Shown piece by piece: positions 1 through 7,790 of a DNA stretch of 7,790 nucleotides; position 1 is the stretch's first letter; the number at the start of each line of letters is the position of its first letter. The DNA lies in assembly GCA_020427905.1 (NCBI GenBank), contig JAGQNU010000071.1, positions 1-7,790 on the forward strand. The letters run 5' to 3'. Below the pieces are notes generated by a model. That model made no database searches and was not told the DNA's origin. It saw only the letters and a program-made list of their open reading frames with translations. The DNA is from Candidatus Saccharimonadota bacterium (GTDB taxonomy: Bacteria > Patescibacteriota > Saccharimonadia > Saccharimonadales > UBA7683). The translations under genes and the position numbers were made by a program.

Positions 1-1194
1 AACATCATCATTCTCATCTTGAAAGTTCTCAATAACTGCGATTGGACCGCGACTGGTCACCATCGCCGTGCCATTAAGTGTATGCACATAATTGATCTTG
101 CCATCCGAGTCACGATATCTGATATTAAGACGTCGCGCCTGATAATCTGTAACATTTGAGCAACTCGTAAGCTCACGGTACTCACCGTCGAGCGAGCTGA
201 AGTACTCAAGGTCAAACTTCTTAAACGCTGGTGCACCGAGATCGCCTGATGCAATAGCAAGCTTGTGATACGGAATCCCGAGATCTTGCAACAGCTCCTC
301 TTCAATTGCCATTAATTTGTCGTGCCATTCAGAGCTTTGCTCAGGGACACAAAACACATACAGCTCTACCTTGTAGAACTGGTGCACACGGTAGAGTCCC
401 TTGCTATGCTTGCCATACGCCCCGGCCTCCATGCGGTAGCATGGGCTCCAGCCAACGTACAAGAGTGGCAAATCAGCAACGTCGATGATTTCATCCTTAT
501 GATACGCAGTCAGTGGAATCTCGGCCGTTGCAATCAGGTTGAGGTCTTCTCCATCGATCGTGTAAATCTGTCGCTCTTCACCGCGCGGCGCATAACCTGT
601 ACCGCCAATCACGTCACCATTAACCATATTTGGCACAAACATTGGCGTGAAGCCATGCTCAATGCCTTTTTGCAGCGCAAATTGCATCAGTGCAAACTCA
701 AGCTGGGCGAGGTCGCCTTTTGAGTAAAAGAACTTGCTGCCGGCAACCTTTGCACCGCGCTCAAAATCAACGAGGTCTCGCTCCTCGAGCCAAGTCAGGT
801 GATCCTTGATATCTCGCTGAGTAGCATCACCCCACTTTGAGACAGGGGTGTTAGCATCCTCACCACCAAGCGGAGTGTCCTCAGAGAACGTATTTGGTAC
901 ATCGGCCAGTAACTCATTGAACTCGGCTTCAGTTGGGTCAAGCTCAGCCTCGAGTTCTGTGAGTGTCTCTTTAATACGCTTGCCCTCAGCAATCAGCTCA
1001 GGGCTTGGTTGACCACCCTTCATTTGCGCAGCGGTCTCATTGCGAGCTTTGCGTAACTTCTCAACCTCTTGCAGCAGTTCACGGCGTTTTTTATCAAGCT
1101 CGAGAAGCTTGTCGATGTCTACGGCAATATTTTTATGTGCGGCAGCATCTTTCACTACCTGTGGGTTCTCACGGATGAACTGGATATCAATCAT
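1..1194 (-). CDS. serS: Seryl-tRNA synthetase (SerRS), 3' end cut by window edge
   Basis: This cytoplasmic class II synthetase charges tRNA-Ser with serine. The minus-strand frame from ATG at 1194 stays open to the left edge, giving 398 codons. The usual length is about 420, so roughly the last 25 are outside. The start MIDIQFIRENP is the classic SerRS N-terminus. A charged, coiled-coil-like arm that binds the tRNA-Ser long variable arm follows (about residues 29-105). Motif 2 begins with YRMEAG near residue 253 and runs through GLYRVHQFYKVE. The ATP/serine-site block includes ASGDLG (near 317), KKFDLE and TSCSNVTDYQARR. Motif 3 is TSRGPIAVIENF (380 onward), with R382 as the class II arginine. 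No Shine-Dalgarno precedes the ATG. A TATACT box at 1202-1207 suggests a leaderless or very short-leader message, and a second promoter lies further upstream. The identity is certain; the true C-terminus is not visible. Confidence 0.97.
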   Translation of the reverse strand, partial: MIDIQFIRENPQVVKDAAAHKNIAVDIDKLLELDKKRRELLQEVEKLRKARNETAAQMKGGQPSPELIAEGKRIKETLTELEAELDPTEAEFNELLADVPNTFSEDTPLGGEDANTPVSKWGDATQRDIKDHLTWLEERDLVDFERGAKVAGSKFFYSKGDLAQLEFALMQFALQKGIEHGFTPMFVPNMVNGDVIGGTGYAPRGEERQIYTIDGEDLNLIATAEIPLTAYHKDEIIDVADLPLLYVGWSPCYRMEAGAYGKHSKGLYRVHQFYKVELYVFCVPEQSSEWHDKLMAIEEELLQDLGIPYHKLAIASGDLGAPAFKKFDLEYFSSLDGEYRELTSCSNVTDYQARRLNIRYRDSDGKINYVHTLNGTAMVTSRGPIAVIENFQDENDDV

Positions 1195-1201
1195 GCAATC
1201 A

Positions 1202-1207
1202 AGTATA
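1202..1207 (-). promoter_or_regulatory. Candidate proximal -10 box of serS
   Basis: On the minus strand this reads CGCTATACT, five of six matches to TATAAT. It ends seven bases before the serS ATG, so a start site at the normal distance would fall at or next to the ATG and give a leaderless message. That would fit the missing Shine-Dalgarno. No good -35 box is visible at 16-18 bases; only a weak TTACGT lies near it. The octamer GCTATACT recurs at 1281-1288. Confidence 0.35.
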
Positions 1208-1221
1208 GCGTATCTGGGTAG

Positions 1222-1258
1222 AAAAACGTAAAAGGAGCTAGCCTTTTCAGCCAACTCC
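1222..1258 (-). terminator. Rho-independent terminator or attenuator upstream of serS
   Basis: Read on the minus strand, GGAGTTGGCT pairs with GGCTAGCTCC in a ten-pair stem that includes three G-U wobbles. The loop is GAAAA, and TTTTACGTTTTT follows. It lies about 75 bases after the stop of the membrane-protein gene and 28 bases before the serS ATG. The simplest reading is the terminator of the heliorhodopsin unit. A good promoter lies at 1281-1308, upstream of the hairpin, so it could also act as an attenuator in the serS leader. Confidence 0.65.
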
Positions 1259-1280
1259 CTCACGCTGTTTGTTTTCACTC

Positions 1281-1308
1281 AGTATAGCACTTATGCAAAA
1301 TTTGTAAT
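1281..1308 (-). promoter_or_regulatory. Candidate distal serS promoter with extended -10
   Basis: The minus strand shows ATTACA (1308-1303) as a -35 box with four of six consensus matches. A 16-base spacer follows, then TGCTATACT, an extended -10 with TGn and a five-of-six hexamer (1286-1281). Transcription would begin near 1274 and give a leader of about 80 bases that contains the hairpin at 1222-1258. The element lies just after the end of the membrane-protein gene. Confidence 0.5.
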
Positions 1309-1333
1309 GGGTTTGTTGTACATAATACAAATG

Positions 1334-2287
1334 CTAATTCGCCGGTGAGCCAATTATGTTCTCAAGCACATTTTGAGCGTCTTTGAGACTTATCACATCC
1401 TTCGGTTCTGCAATCCCATCTAGGGACTTTTTAGTTGGTTTTACCGTGTGTTCAACAGAAATTGATCTGTTAGCATGCCTCAGTGTCATTTCTATAATCT
1501 GATTGTTCACAGCGTTCACTGTGAACGAGAGCGTATACGCGTCATTCATTACTGCACTCGGGTCATTGCTGCCTAGTTGCTCTACGACGCCCCCGCATGC
1601 AGTCGTAAGCTGCGCCCCTTCAGGTGCACTGCTCAATTGTTCAAATAATGTATTCAGCTGTTTTTTACTGAGCGTGAATGAATACACTGCATTGCCATCC
1701 CGATTAGTGCCTTCCTCTACCGGAAGCTGCCCCATCAGCTGTTTTGCCTCACTGCGCCGCAGTAAAGTGCCAGCCTGCTGCAAGCATTGTTGGCTGTTGG
1801 CGAGAGACTCAAGCTGTATCCACTTGCCCTCAAGTTGCTCTGCGACCAACTGAGCATAGCCAGTATAGCGAGCGAGTTGAGTGTTTTGAGTGGCGGCTTT
1901 ATCAAGCGCACTGCCAACATTCTTTAACTTAATATATGTATGGTTCTTTACTGAAACTACCTCAGAATCTACCGCCAGACTAACTTCGCCACTAGCGATG
2001 CGGACGGCACCCTTCCCACTAAAGTATTTATCGGTACCGGCTCCCTCAATCGTAATGACAGACCTTGTTGAACCGTCTGTTAGCTTCACTGTTATCTCGC
2101 TTTGTCTTGGTTCAGCACTCGAGAGCGACTGCGTGGTTGCTCTCAGCGCCGAGAGAAGCTTCTCTTGCGGTGTCGCCTGGTGCACGCCTCGCCACAATAC
2201 AACTCCTAGAATAGCTACGAGAAGTAAAACTACTCCCACAATGATCCACTGTTTACGAGTCTTGTTTTGCTCCACTGTATACTTCAT
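1334..2287 (-). CDS. One-pass membrane protein with large external domain, heliorhodopsin operon partner
   Basis: I do not recognise this 317-residue protein by family. A charged N-terminus (MKYTVEQNKTRKQ) is followed by one hydrophobic segment at about 14-33 (WIIVGVVLLLVAILGVV). There is no lipobox cysteine, so it is probably an uncleaved signal anchor with residues 40-317 outside. The external part alternates polar beta-like strands (KYFSGKGAVRIAS, VSVKNHTYIKLKN, GKWIQLE). That pattern loosely recalls the LolA/LppX-type barrels of Gram-positive surface lipoproteins, but the resemblance is only in pattern. There are just two cysteines, C168 and C231, which could form a disulfide. The ATG at 2287 lies three bases after the heliorhodopsin stop and lacks a Shine-Dalgarno, so translation is probably coupled to that gene. 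The stop is TAG at 1334. The gene is solid; its function is unknown. Confidence 0.85.
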   Translation of the reverse strand: MKYTVEQNKTRKQWIIVGVVLLLVAILGVVLWRGVHQATPQEKLLSALRATTQSLSSAEPRQSEITVKLTDGSTRSVITIEGAGTDKYFSGKGAVRIASGEVSLAVDSEVVSVKNHTYIKLKNVGSALDKAATQNTQLARYTGYAQLVAEQLEGKWIQLESLANSQQCLQQAGTLLRRSEAKQLMGQLPVEEGTNRDGNAVYSFTLSKKQLNTLFEQLSSAPEGAQLTTACGGVVEQLGSNDPSAVMNDAYTLSFTVNAVNNQIIEMTLRHANRSISVEHTVKPTKKSLDGIAEPKDVISLKDAQNVLENIIGSPAN

Positions 2288-2290
2288 ACG

Positions 2291-3073
2291 CTATGGGCGG
2301 AGGCTACCTGCAAACACCTGCCAGGCAAGTGCAGATTTAGCAACAAGACTGAGGATAATGTAAGCACGCTCACCGTATAAATACTGCGACCACTTGCCCA
2401 CTTTTTTGTACTGCAGGTACATGTTGATAGCAAAGCTGTTGAAGAACACGAAGATGCTGACATAGATCCAATAGACAAACGTTGGCACGCTTCCTGACCC
2501 ATAACTTTCAGCACCCCATACATAGATGACGAACACAACCCACGGCACGATACCGAGCAAACAGCCGATCCAATAACTGAGCCAGTTGGTCTGCTTTGTG
2601 GTCTGGTTCCAGAGCTCCATAACGAGCCCCGTCAGGTTCATGCCTGCTACCAGCGCAAATATCATGATCAGACTTGAGAGATCATAGATGCCACTCAGCA
2701 GCGCAATCCCGACCATCATGGTGCTTGCCGATAGACTGTATTCAATCCACCGTGCCTTGTTAACGCCAACCTTGAGATCCTTCAAATACTGCTTCTTGTA
2801 CACGGTCGCAATGATAAAGTGAGCTGCTGCAGACATAAACAAAAACGCAGTCGTTAGAAGTGCTAGCGACACCGTAAATAGCTCGGTTGAAGCTGGCTCG
2901 AGTCGTTGGTCAGCACCAAGAGTCAGATAGTTTGTTACAATTGGTAATTTTGCATCTGTGGCCAGTAGCAACATCACCACCGCCTGCACAAGGTGCAAAA
3001 CACCCGCAATTACATTAAACCTGATGAGATACTCGTCAGAGTACAACTGCTTCTCCTTGAACAATCTAAACAT
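2291..3073 (-). CDS. Heliorhodopsin (retinal-binding seven-helix photoreceptor)
   Basis: This 260-residue protein spans the membrane seven times (roughly 17-38, 66-92, 107-128, 132-152, 165-186, 198-219, 233-256). Helix 7 reads LSLVAKSALAWQVFAGSL, with K246 as the Schiff-base lysine in the heliorhodopsin SxxxK context (S242). Helix 3 holds RWIEYSLSAS, so E111 is the expected counterion. H27 (helix 1) and H85 (helix 2) match the conserved histidine pair of the family. The long loop after helix 1 (about 39-66) is also typical. Members sit inverted relative to type-1 rhodopsins, with the N-terminus inside. They have slow photocycles and generally do not pump ions, which suggests a sensory or regulatory role. 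AAGGAGG lies just before the ATG, the strongest ribosome binding site in the window. The next gene follows after three bases. The family call is firm; the signalling output is unknown. Confidence 0.96.
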   Translation of the reverse strand: MFRLFKEKQLYSDEYLIRFNVIAGVLHLVQAVVMLLLATDAKLPIVTNYLTLGADQRLEPASTELFTVSLALLTTAFLFMSAAAHFIIATVYKKQYLKDLKVGVNKARWIEYSLSASTMMVGIALLSGIYDLSSLIMIFALVAGMNLTGLVMELWNQTTKQTNWLSYWIGCLLGIVPWVVFVIYVWGAESYGSGSVPTFVYWIYVSIFVFFNSFAINMYLQYKKVGKWSQYLYGERAYIILSLVAKSALAWQVFAGSLRP

Positions 3074-3123: not shown

Positions 3124-3158
3124 TTTTCAATAAACGCCTCAATCACTGTGAGGCGTTT
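3124..3158 (-). terminator. Rho-independent terminator of lysS
   Basis: On the minus strand AAACGCCTC and GAGGCGTTT form a perfect nine-pair stem with a nine-base loop, starting three bases after the lysS stop. The following tract (TTTATTG) is only moderately T-rich, so termination may be incomplete. The structure separates lysS from the heliorhodopsin unit. Confidence 0.8.
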
Positions 3159-3160
3159 CG

Positions 3161-4672
3161 CTAATCAAATTTTATCTTTGGGTAAATTGACCGAGTAACC
3201 TCATCAGTCTCAGCACGTAATTGCGGGAATGGGACACCCTCTCGCGCAGTCACTCCCTCAAATACCCAGAACACACGTTCAGAGAACCCGAGGCCACAGG
3301 CTGGTGGCATACCGTACTCCAGCATCTCCACATAGTCGATATCGAGCATCATCGCCTCATCATCGCCCTCATCACGCATCTGTTGTTGCTCTAAAAATCG
3401 ATTGAGCTGGTCGACTGGGTCATTGAGCTCCGAGAACCCGTTAGACAGCTCGCTGCCCGCAATAACCGCCTGGAAGCGCTGGGTAAAGTCAGGATTCTCA
3501 TCATCAGTTTTACTCAGTGGCGAGATAAAGGTTGGTGTATTGATGAGCCAGACTGGCCCGACTACCGTAGCACGCACTTTCTTCCAAAGTTTGTCGATGC
3601 CTCGCGGGATGCTATCTGTCTTCTCAACCTCAAGTCCATTGTCTTTGAGCGCCTTAGCAATTTGCTCGATTGTGCAGTCAAACACGTCGATATCATAGTG
3701 ATCTTTGATAACTGTGGCGTAATCCCACTGCTCCCACTTCTTACTCATATCAACCTGCATGCCGTTGATATCAAACTTCAGCGTACCAAACGCCTCGCTC
3801 AGCACATATTTAAACATGCGCTCCTGAAATGCCGTGCCGTCACGCCAATCTGCATAGGCCCAGTACCACTCCATCGCCACATGCTCGGGCAGATGCTCGT
3901 CGGTGTAGTTCTCGTTTCTGAATCGCGGACCGATATCATAAACCTTCTCAAACCCTGCACCGATCAGACGCTTCAGCGGCAACTCATGACTAATCCTGAG
4001 GTAGAAATCTTGGCCAAGTGCATCCATACGCGTCACAAATGGGTTAGCATCTGCACCCCCGGTTGTGTGCTCAAGTACAGGAATATTTACCTCGGTGAAG
4101 CCTTCTTGATTTAAGAAGTCGCGGGTAGCCTGCCAAAACTTCGAGCGCCGCACAAACCGCTCGCGAACGTCCTCGTTAACGTTCATGTCGACGTAGCGAC
4201 GACGCATGCGCTCCTCTTTGTTCGTGAAGCCATCCTGCTGAGTTGGCATTGGCCGCAATGACTTAGTGAGCAACCGTAGTTTGCTCACCGCAACAGATAT
4301 CTCACCTGTCTTTGTTTTAATAACCTCACCAGTTGCCTCAACAAAGTCACCGCTATCCAATAAGTTAAGCTGCTCCATTGTAAGCTCGCTATTAGCTGGC
4401 TTGGCTGATGCAATACATCCGTCTTTGAAGAACAACTGTACACTGCCTGAGTCATCTTTCACCACAATAAATGCTAGCTTGCCAAACTTGCGAATACCCG
4501 TAACTCGGCCCGCCACAGTCACGTCAGACCCCTCTAGTTTAGTGAAGTCATCTACGACTTGCTGAGTTTTATGAGTTCGAGTTGAGTGTGCAGGATACGG
4601 ATTGATCCCTGCATTTTTGAGTTCTTCTAGTTTTCTGAGGCGCTCATCACGCAGTTCTTTTAAGTTTGCCAT
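3161..4672 (-). CDS. lysS: Lysyl-tRNA synthetase, class II (LysRS)
   Basis: LysRS attaches lysine to tRNA-Lys in the cytoplasm. The 503-residue length is normal for the bacterial class II form. An OB-fold anticodon domain covers about residues 50-140 (VTVAGRVTGIRKFGKLAF). RMRRRYVDMNVNEDVRERF is the usual linker. Motif 1 is NIPVLEHTTGGADANPF (196-212). Motif 2 begins at GPRFRNEN (248) and runs to AYADW (276). NGFSELNDPVDQLNRF (411-426) is a LysRS signature, and motif 3 is GLGFSERVFWVFEG (460-473) with R466 as the class II arginine. Motifs 2 and 3 depart from the common LysRS wording (FRNEG, GIGIDR), giving a lineage-specific look. The ATG at 4672 follows the upstream stop by seven bases. A GAGGTGAT match lies inside the end of the upstream gene but 14 bases from the ATG, so coupling is likely. 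A terminator follows the stop. Confidence 0.96.
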   Translation of the reverse strand: MANLKELRDERLRKLEELKNAGINPYPAHSTRTHKTQQVVDDFTKLEGSDVTVAGRVTGIRKFGKLAFIVVKDDSGSVQLFFKDGCIASAKPANSELTMEQLNLLDSGDFVEATGEVIKTKTGEISVAVSKLRLLTKSLRPMPTQQDGFTNKEERMRRRYVDMNVNEDVRERFVRRSKFWQATRDFLNQEGFTEVNIPVLEHTTGGADANPFVTRMDALGQDFYLRISHELPLKRLIGAGFEKVYDIGPRFRNENYTDEHLPEHVAMEWYWAYADWRDGTAFQERMFKYVLSEAFGTLKFDINGMQVDMSKKWEQWDYATVIKDHYDIDVFDCTIEQIAKALKDNGLEVEKTDSIPRGIDKLWKKVRATVVGPVWLINTPTFISPLSKTDDENPDFTQRFQAVIAGSELSNGFSELNDPVDQLNRFLEQQQMRDEGDDEAMMLDIDYVEMLEYGMPPACGLGFSERVFWVFEGVTAREGVPFPQLRAETDEVTRSIYPKIKFD

Positions 4673-7176: not shown

Positions 7177-7790
7177 TTATCCTATCACAAGCCTGGTTTC
7201 GTTTACCCCCGTCATATCATCACTAACGCCGGTAACACGGGTTTCCACTCCGCTCCGTGCCGCAAGCTCCAGCGCATCAAGTGTGGTTACTGGCCCGCCA
7301 CGCCCAGTATCACTTTTTGCACGAGTACTCAGCATATCACGATACTGTTGAATTGTGCTGCTAGTTATTTCTGCGATGTATGCATCCGAGTCATCTCGTA
7401 ACCCACCTTCACGCTTCCACAGCGTCAGGGAGTCAGCGTGCATAGCTTTAGCTATATGTGCCGCGAGCAAATCGTTATCTATCTCATACTCAAAACCAAA
7501 CAGTAACCGCATCAACTCTTTATCGTTCATGGCATCCGCCTCATTAATAATTGAGACGATGCTGTTATTGGCATTGTCTTGCAATACAGTAATGAAACTC
7601 ACGCGTTCTTTACTCGTCTCTGGCCCAGCATCAGCATCCAATAGGTGGTGTGTGATTGGGAAGCTGGCAGAGAGCATACCCTGCTTTGCACAGGCACGCT
7701 CAAACGCACTAAATACTTGTGTGGCACCAACCCCAGCCAATTGCTTGTCGGTAATCTGCTGACGCTCACCCACGAGCGTACTCAGCTGGT
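7177..7790 (-). CDS. Glutamate 5-kinase-like amino acid kinase, 5' end cut by window edge
   Basis: This is the C-terminal three-quarters or so of an amino-acid-kinase-fold protein. The frame runs open to the right edge; a GTG at 7773 is internal, because homology continues upstream of it. It aligns by eye with E. coli ProB: QLAGVGATQVFSAFERA and SFPITHHLL match the helix before the active site, SIINEADAM replaces PVINENDAV, DNDLLAAHIAKAMHADSL matches DNDNLSALAAILAGADKL, and GRGGPVTTLDALELAARSG matches GTGGMSTKLQAADVACRAG. ProB makes glutamyl-5-phosphate in proline synthesis. Here the nucleotide-site lysine of GMSTK is threonine and the LTD-GLYT segment reads WKREGGL, so ATP binding may be altered. 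The protein stops at the end of the kinase domain with no PUA domain. The stop is four bases before proS. The fold assignment is good; the activity is doubtful, so no symbol is given. Confidence 0.75.
   Translation of the reverse strand, partial: QLSTLVGERQQITDKQLAGVGATQVFSAFERACAKQGMLSASFPITHHLLDADAGPETSKERVSFITVLQDNANNSIVSIINEADAMNDKELMRLLFGFEYEIDNDLLAAHIAKAMHADSLTLWKREGGLRDDSDAYIAEITSSTIQQYRDMLSTRAKSDTGRGGPVTTLDALELAARSGVETRVTGVSDDMTGVNETRLVIG

Follow-up and report, generated by a model that had tools for sequence, protein, structure and literature searches.

A heliorhodopsin gene followed by a predicted lipid-carrier-fold protein in a Saccharimonadales genome, neighbours probably through loss of ABC-FtsX transporter genes

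Background

This study concerns a heliorhodopsin (HeR) gene and the gene that directly follows it in the genome of a Candidatus Saccharimonadota bacterium of the order Saccharimonadales. Both lie on a stretch of 7,790 nucleotides, hereafter the window, which is the whole of contig C57 (JAGQNU010000071.1) of the fragmented genome G000 (GCA_020427905.1; 719,658 bases, 132 contigs, 76.9% complete). The second gene encodes a protein with a single membrane anchor and a putative lipid-carrier domain, called the carrier in the following. HeRs of the candidate phyla radiation are described as occurring mostly in Saccharimonadia (PMC9166423), and the rhodopsin-bearing Saccharibacteria that have been studied are reported to lack blh and are thought to import retinal by a route not yet known (PMC9296517).

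Several arrangements of HeR with neighbouring genes have been described. In the HeR-OmrDE operon of O. cerasi (PMC11109279), HeR precedes ATP-binding cassette (ABC) transporter genes on one strand, an order which probably also holds for G001, a family mate of G000. The G001 transporter, however, is of the FtsX/MacB type and accompanied by a carrier homologue, in place of the OmrDE half-transporter pair, while the window keeps the carrier only; an ABC transporter gene in operon with HeR is absent from the window and probable in G001 alone. The same source distinguishes ten groups of co-operonic HeR neighbours, ABC transporters included, and its passages on them do not name a LolA-like protein. 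In the HeR-enzyme operons (glutamine synthetase, photolyase, glutaredoxin; PMC9529153, PMC9769723, PMC8612252), the gene adjoins HeR, on the same strand where the sources state it, and the genes that follow or precede HeR by 10 bp or less frequently encode glutaredoxin, GSHPx or other proteins interpreted as related to oxidative stress (PMC8612252). Those neighbours are taken to act inside the cell, whereas the carrier would face outside. At the level of titles and abstract openings, the HeR literature on Patescibacteria and Saccharibacteria does not report the present pair, which may have an entry in the supplementary tables of PMC8612252.

The second protein invites comparison with lipid carriers. 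LprG and LppX, mycobacterial lipid-binding lipoproteins of the LolA superfamily, share with the carrier a half-barrel with helices outside the membrane, as far as its structure model predicts; unlike them, the carrier has a transmembrane anchor instead of a lipobox cysteine and gives no sequence-profile match. A further parallel is the LolCDE-LolA system, since an ABC ATPase, an FtsX-domain permease and a homologue of the carrier stand side by side in G001, and in G002, a second family mate, with a cut ATPase. In contrast to LolCDE-LolA, the carrier is tethered, there is one permease gene and not two, and the window site lacks the ABC part.

Results and discussion

The second gene probably encodes a single-anchor protein whose outer domain has the LolA/LprG lipid-carrier fold, and it most likely came to stand next to the HeR gene through the loss of intervening ABC ATPase and FtsX genes. 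The HeR gene (2291..3073, minus strand, 260 aa) matches PF18761 with 315.6 bits (cut-off 26.7) over profile positions 1-242 of 242, covering the whole protein, and NF038020 with 327 bits; it aligns at near full length to solved HeRs, 6is6 among them (E 7.5e-77). The Schiff-base lysine motif SxxxK of helix 7 is present as SLVAK at residues 242-246, and a simple hydropathy scan does not resolve seven peaks. On these sequence grounds the product is certainly a genuine heliorhodopsin, as an earlier note on this DNA had claimed. Its closest match in the named genome collection is 80% identical (L082, Candidatus Saccharibacteria bacterium).

The carrier gene (1334..2287, minus strand, 317 aa) encodes one hydrophobic segment at about residues 14-32 with a basic N-terminal side, so that some 280 residues would lie outside, in line with the topology proposed in that note. 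There is no lipobox cysteine at the N-terminus; the sole cysteines, Cys168 and Cys231, are invariant in the six sequences of alignment A2. The carrier reaches the cut-off of no Pfam or NCBIfam family and has no PDB sequence match of weight, and a Pfam scan of 13 relatives revealed no family common to them. Structure modelling predicts the LolA/LprG/LppX fold for the outer domain, with a half-barrel beta sheet and helices at its mouth, and LprG and LppX are among the best PDB matches of both structure models, at low template-modelling (TM) scores. A protein that binds lipids outside the membrane might also be an RseB/MucB-like envelope sensor, which would bind stray lipids and control a membrane regulator. 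RseB has a second domain and the partner RseA; the window shows no recognisable anti-sigma or sigma gene, and matches to anti-sigma-type profiles were weak (E about 0.02) and far under their cut-offs, which makes such a sensor highly improbable.

The case for loss comes from the family mates. In both G001 and G002 a carrier homologue lies directly before serS and directly after an FtsX/MacB-type permease, so that, judged by sequence, a carrier-family gene precedes serS in three genera and the permease directly precedes that gene in two. In G001 the transporter matches PF00005, PF02687 and PF12704, with the ATPase gene preceding the permease gene and running off contig C43; the G002 permease matches PF02687 and gives 26.6 bits against a cut-off of 27 for PF12704, and its ATPase is cut by the contig end. 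Both the ATPase and the permease are absent beside the carrier at the window site, where serS (1..1194, minus strand; TIGR00414, 431 bits, running off the contig) forms the downstream edge and lysS (3161..4672, minus strand) the upstream edge. The G001 HeR gene stands at the end of contig C26, behind proS, greA and lysS, which match those of the window, and a lysA-like gene named by eye. The ends of C26 and C43 share ten bases and, when joined, read as one ATPase gene, whose start (VIEVKNLSKVYGKKESAFTALDD) resembles that of same-island ATPases elsewhere (MIEVKQLSKVYGKKDTAFTAL in L139). From this we infer the order lysS-lysA-HeR-ABC-FtsX-carrier-serS for G001. The string of the window, lysS-HeR-carrier-serS, equals that of G001 minus lysA, ABC and FtsX. 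Most likely, then, HeR and carrier became neighbours when the ABC and FtsX genes disappeared, and as to the direction of change the simplest assumption is a loss on the branch of the window.

If so, the outer domain of the membrane-tethered carrier would bind a lipid or another hydrophobic molecule within its half-barrel. The carrier would formerly have worked with the ABC-FtsX pair, much as LolA does with LolCDE or LprG with its exporter, and HeR would owe its place ahead of the carrier to an old neighbourhood between lysS and serS. Regulation of the carrier by light is a possibility.

Several points weigh against this account. The G001 order depends on a ten-base overlap, and carriers of different genera share no more than about 25% identity. 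The loss is weakly polarised, because SerS identities (81.4% between G000 and G001, 76.1% between G000 and G002, 79.5% between G001 and G002) place G002 outside only weakly; its HeR is located elsewhere (L044). A search of G000 for an FtsX orthologue at E 1e-30 was negative, but as that genome is 76.9% complete the transporter may be elsewhere in it. Among 16 genomes, the FtsX orthologue is not near HeR in seven, three of which have no HeR match. As for the fold, the model was built from 11 sequences (pLDDT 74.8, pTM 0.70), and its top six structure matches reach TM-scores of 0.30-0.37 by query and 0.45-0.52 by target, at a root-mean-square deviation of about 7-8.

Finally, a sister species seems to keep the pair, with a carrier that is down to 55% identity but retains the invariant tail at its C-terminus; a real link with HeR would be compatible with this. 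A protein search, which reaches only relatives sharing exact words, returned four close relatives of the carrier with 90, 59, 55 and 55% identity. One of the 55% homologues (P0005) and a HeR that is 96% identical to that of the window (P0006) both report 20,323 bases as their longest contig, and they are thus probably on one contig. If the two belong to one genome, the carrier would evolve far faster than HeR. The C-terminal peptide AQNVLENIIGSPAN (window 1337-1385) is nevertheless invariant in five of five close homologues whose overall identity falls to 55%: across five sequences, 15 of the final 17 positions do not vary, compared with 5-15 invariant positions per 30 elsewhere, and the tail is not matched letter for letter in G001 or G002. 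Should any contact with HeR exist, this tail would be the best candidate site.

HeR is often found in a recurrent string, proS-greA-lysS-(ABC-FtsX)-(MsrA)-HeR-(rRNA methyltransferases, PD-DEXK-like nuclease)-serS, present with parts missing in each case in L061, L078, L079, L101, L139 and others; several of these genes are putatively named from shared sequence. The position of the window's HeR between lysS and serS fits this string. The nearness of HeR to the transporter also raises the alternative that HeR controls a lipid-export module by light, binding ABC, FtsX and carrier, and that in the window's genome its target is the carrier, either by itself or together with an ABC pair encoded elsewhere. 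In 8 of the 16 genomes, and in G001 by the join, the FtsX orthologue and HeR are at most about 4.5 kb apart; two further FtsX-type permeases of G000, more distant ones, adjoin ABC ATPase-like open reading frames (ORFs) on C40 and C90; and the HeR of O. cerasi is reported to modulate its neighbouring ABC transporter (PMC11109279). Against this, housekeeping genes form a recurrent neighbourhood between lysS and serS, so that the nearness may be plain synteny, the seven genomes without it have already been mentioned, the permease is of the FtsX/MacB and not the OmrDE type, and it is missing at the window site. Such light control of an export module is unlikely.

The two genes are separated by three nucleotides, CGT (2288..2290), between the HeR stop TAG and the carrier start ATG, in one reading frame, exactly as the earlier note had it. 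With crude ORF calling, 39 related HeR loci give 294 pairs of neighbours on the same strand; 49 of these are 0-10 nt apart, and the number rises to 107 when overlapping pairs are counted as well. Since short gaps are ordinary in these loci, the spacing suggests an operon and no more. HeR and carrier are likely to share one transcript; equimolar synthesis and coupling remain guesses, and a physical complex of the two proteins a proposal. The in-frame arrangement also brought up a read-through fusion HeR-TAG-CGT-carrier, which was set aside because the topologies clash, the HeR C-terminus being outside and the carrier N-terminus inside. The exact carrier protein is reported on four contigs (the longest of 15,354), which makes a misassembly less likely.

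The HeR start is preceded by a strong Shine-Dalgarno sequence (AAGGAGGGGTA-ATG) and the carrier start by none, and the G002 homologue has a strong one. The lack of a ribosome binding site, correctly noted before, loses its value as a special sign, as serS is likewise without one and such starts are ordinary here. The earlier note had the pair bracketed by terminators, and hairpins do lie on both sides: one of 10 bp just after lysS (3132..3158, minus strand; -14.5 kcal/mol, z -3.0), a possible terminator, and one with a T run between the carrier gene and serS (1225..1266, minus strand; -23.7 kcal/mol, z -3.9), with a similar hairpin seen by eye before serS in G001 and G002. The upstream hairpin lacks a T run; a promoter-like site at 1308-1281 means that the downstream one could also belong to a serS leader; and a consensus scan of the window counted six terminator-like sites against 6.4 expected. 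A consensus scan of the minus strand between lysS and HeR gave no promoter-like site.

The region upstream of serS shows a pattern of its own. In all three family members (window 1194-1310, L043, L045) a TATACT or TATAAT box is followed, by eye, by a GC hairpin and a T run, and the window and G001 have another TATACT box just before the serS ATG, as in a leaderless transcript. This element could be a short leader RNA or an attenuator.

The distribution of the carrier family was surveyed from both sides. Of the 294 genomes of the order, 65 give a match at E 0.001 to profile A2, built from six sequences, three of them from G000-G002; many of these matches are partial. The sample of 50 carrier-family loci comprises the window, G001, G002 and stretches from 48 further genomes minus L228, which has no member under the ORF rules, and leaves 14 of the 65 matching genomes outside. 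On the fetched stretches, HeR is present in one locus (the window), serS in three and the FtsX orthologue in two; among the 49 without HeR is G001, whose HeR would lie some 2.2 kb off if the contigs join as inferred. In eight of nine further carrier loci the neighbours, named by eye, are leucyl-tRNA synthetase, Mur-ligase-like with D-Ala-D-Ala-ligase-like genes, enolase or uvrC. From the other side, the HeR sample, window included, holds 116 loci with 105 distinct HeRs, of which 95 have 1.5 kb or more of downstream sequence; no A2 match at E up to 10 was found in the fetched flanks of the 104 distinct HeRs other than that of the window.

A dedicated, conserved HeR-carrier pair is thus rejected as a general rule. 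The earlier note had named a partner gene occurring mostly without HeR as telling against its proposal and had suggested looking for homologues next to related HeRs; the 49 of 50 loci and the 104 HeRs go mostly against that proposal, and in G001 an ABC ATPase and FtsX very probably lie between HeR and the homologue. What survives of the pair beyond the window is the probable shared contig in the sister species.

The same counts bear on the possibility that the tethered carrier is a surface chaperone, capturing retinal or a carotenoid-like ligand from a host or the medium and loading the HeR of its own transcript. LolA-superfamily (ependymin-related) proteins are reported to bind carotenoids (PMC10470211), and such loading would be the missing uptake route in bacteria unable to make retinal. 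Yet the close profile detects no such neighbour beside the 104 other distinct HeRs, nearly all family members that were looked at stand apart from HeR, and the apoprotein of HeR reportedly incorporates added retinal fast with no helper (PMC9296517), which renders this role quite improbable. A search for PF15461 (blh) was uninformative, with matches in 0 of 60 genomes and also in 0 of 14 controls; PF03055 was not found in G000, and 2 of 14 controls matched.

A wider profile (alignment A3, from a search that gave 14 proteins) adds four matches at E < 0.001 in HeR loci. L094, L090 and L118 were rejected as carrier homologues, their scores coming from the tail and anchor region and not from the outer domain; the L089 match is a 92-aa fragment. 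On the HeR strand, L094 (1559-2443) and L090 (8844-9767), two other Patescibacteria contigs, encode anchored outer proteins that resemble each other and differ from the carrier. The distance from HeR is 51 nt in L094, where thioredoxin-like genes (named by eye) come next, and about 2 kb in L090. With crude ORF calling and hydropathy, single-anchor proteins are not enriched after HeR (4 of 53, window included, compared with 55 of 466 other genes; Fisher p 0.88), which speaks against HeR being generally followed by an anchored surface protein.

A different neighbour recurs beside HeR. Among 60 relatives, MsrA (PF01625) lies within 2.5 kb of HeR in 21 of the 45 HeR-bearing genomes (e.g. L061, L069, L074, L078, L053), on the HeR strand in 18 of the 21; by class, it accompanies 12 of 19 divergent, 3 of 12 intermediate and 6 of 22 close HeRs. 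In G000 it is away from HeR (C5:6728-7183). Among the papers searched, none mentions both heliorhodopsin and methionine sulfoxide reductase. Five of the 11 C-termini inspected belong to HeR-like proteins without the retinal lysine (L067 Ser, L074 Leu, L075 Val, L078 Arg, L079 Arg), which may work without retinal, and in four of these loci (L067, L074, L078, L079) MsrA is on the upstream side.

The minus-strand order of the window is amino acid kinase fragment, proS, greA, a 179-aa ORF, lysS, HeR, carrier and serS. The kinase, HeR and serS genes were named by profile match, and proS, greA and lysS from features of their sequences. The kinase gene (7177-7788, minus strand; PF00696, 46.7 bits) runs off the contig and is nearest to glutamate 5-kinase, at a score far under the cut-off (53.8 of 186 bits). 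An Rfam scan of the window gave nothing at E up to 1.

Conclusions

The idea of a private partner for this heliorhodopsin gives way to a lineage in which HeR, an FtsX-type ABC exporter and a lipid-carrier-fold protein stand in one gene string, the exporter having probably been lost in the window's genus. The study proposes a fold, and hence a class of ligand, for a protein family of the order to which Pfam and NCBIfam gave no annotation here. How rhodopsin-bearing bacteria without retinal synthesis may obtain their chromophore becomes testable as well.
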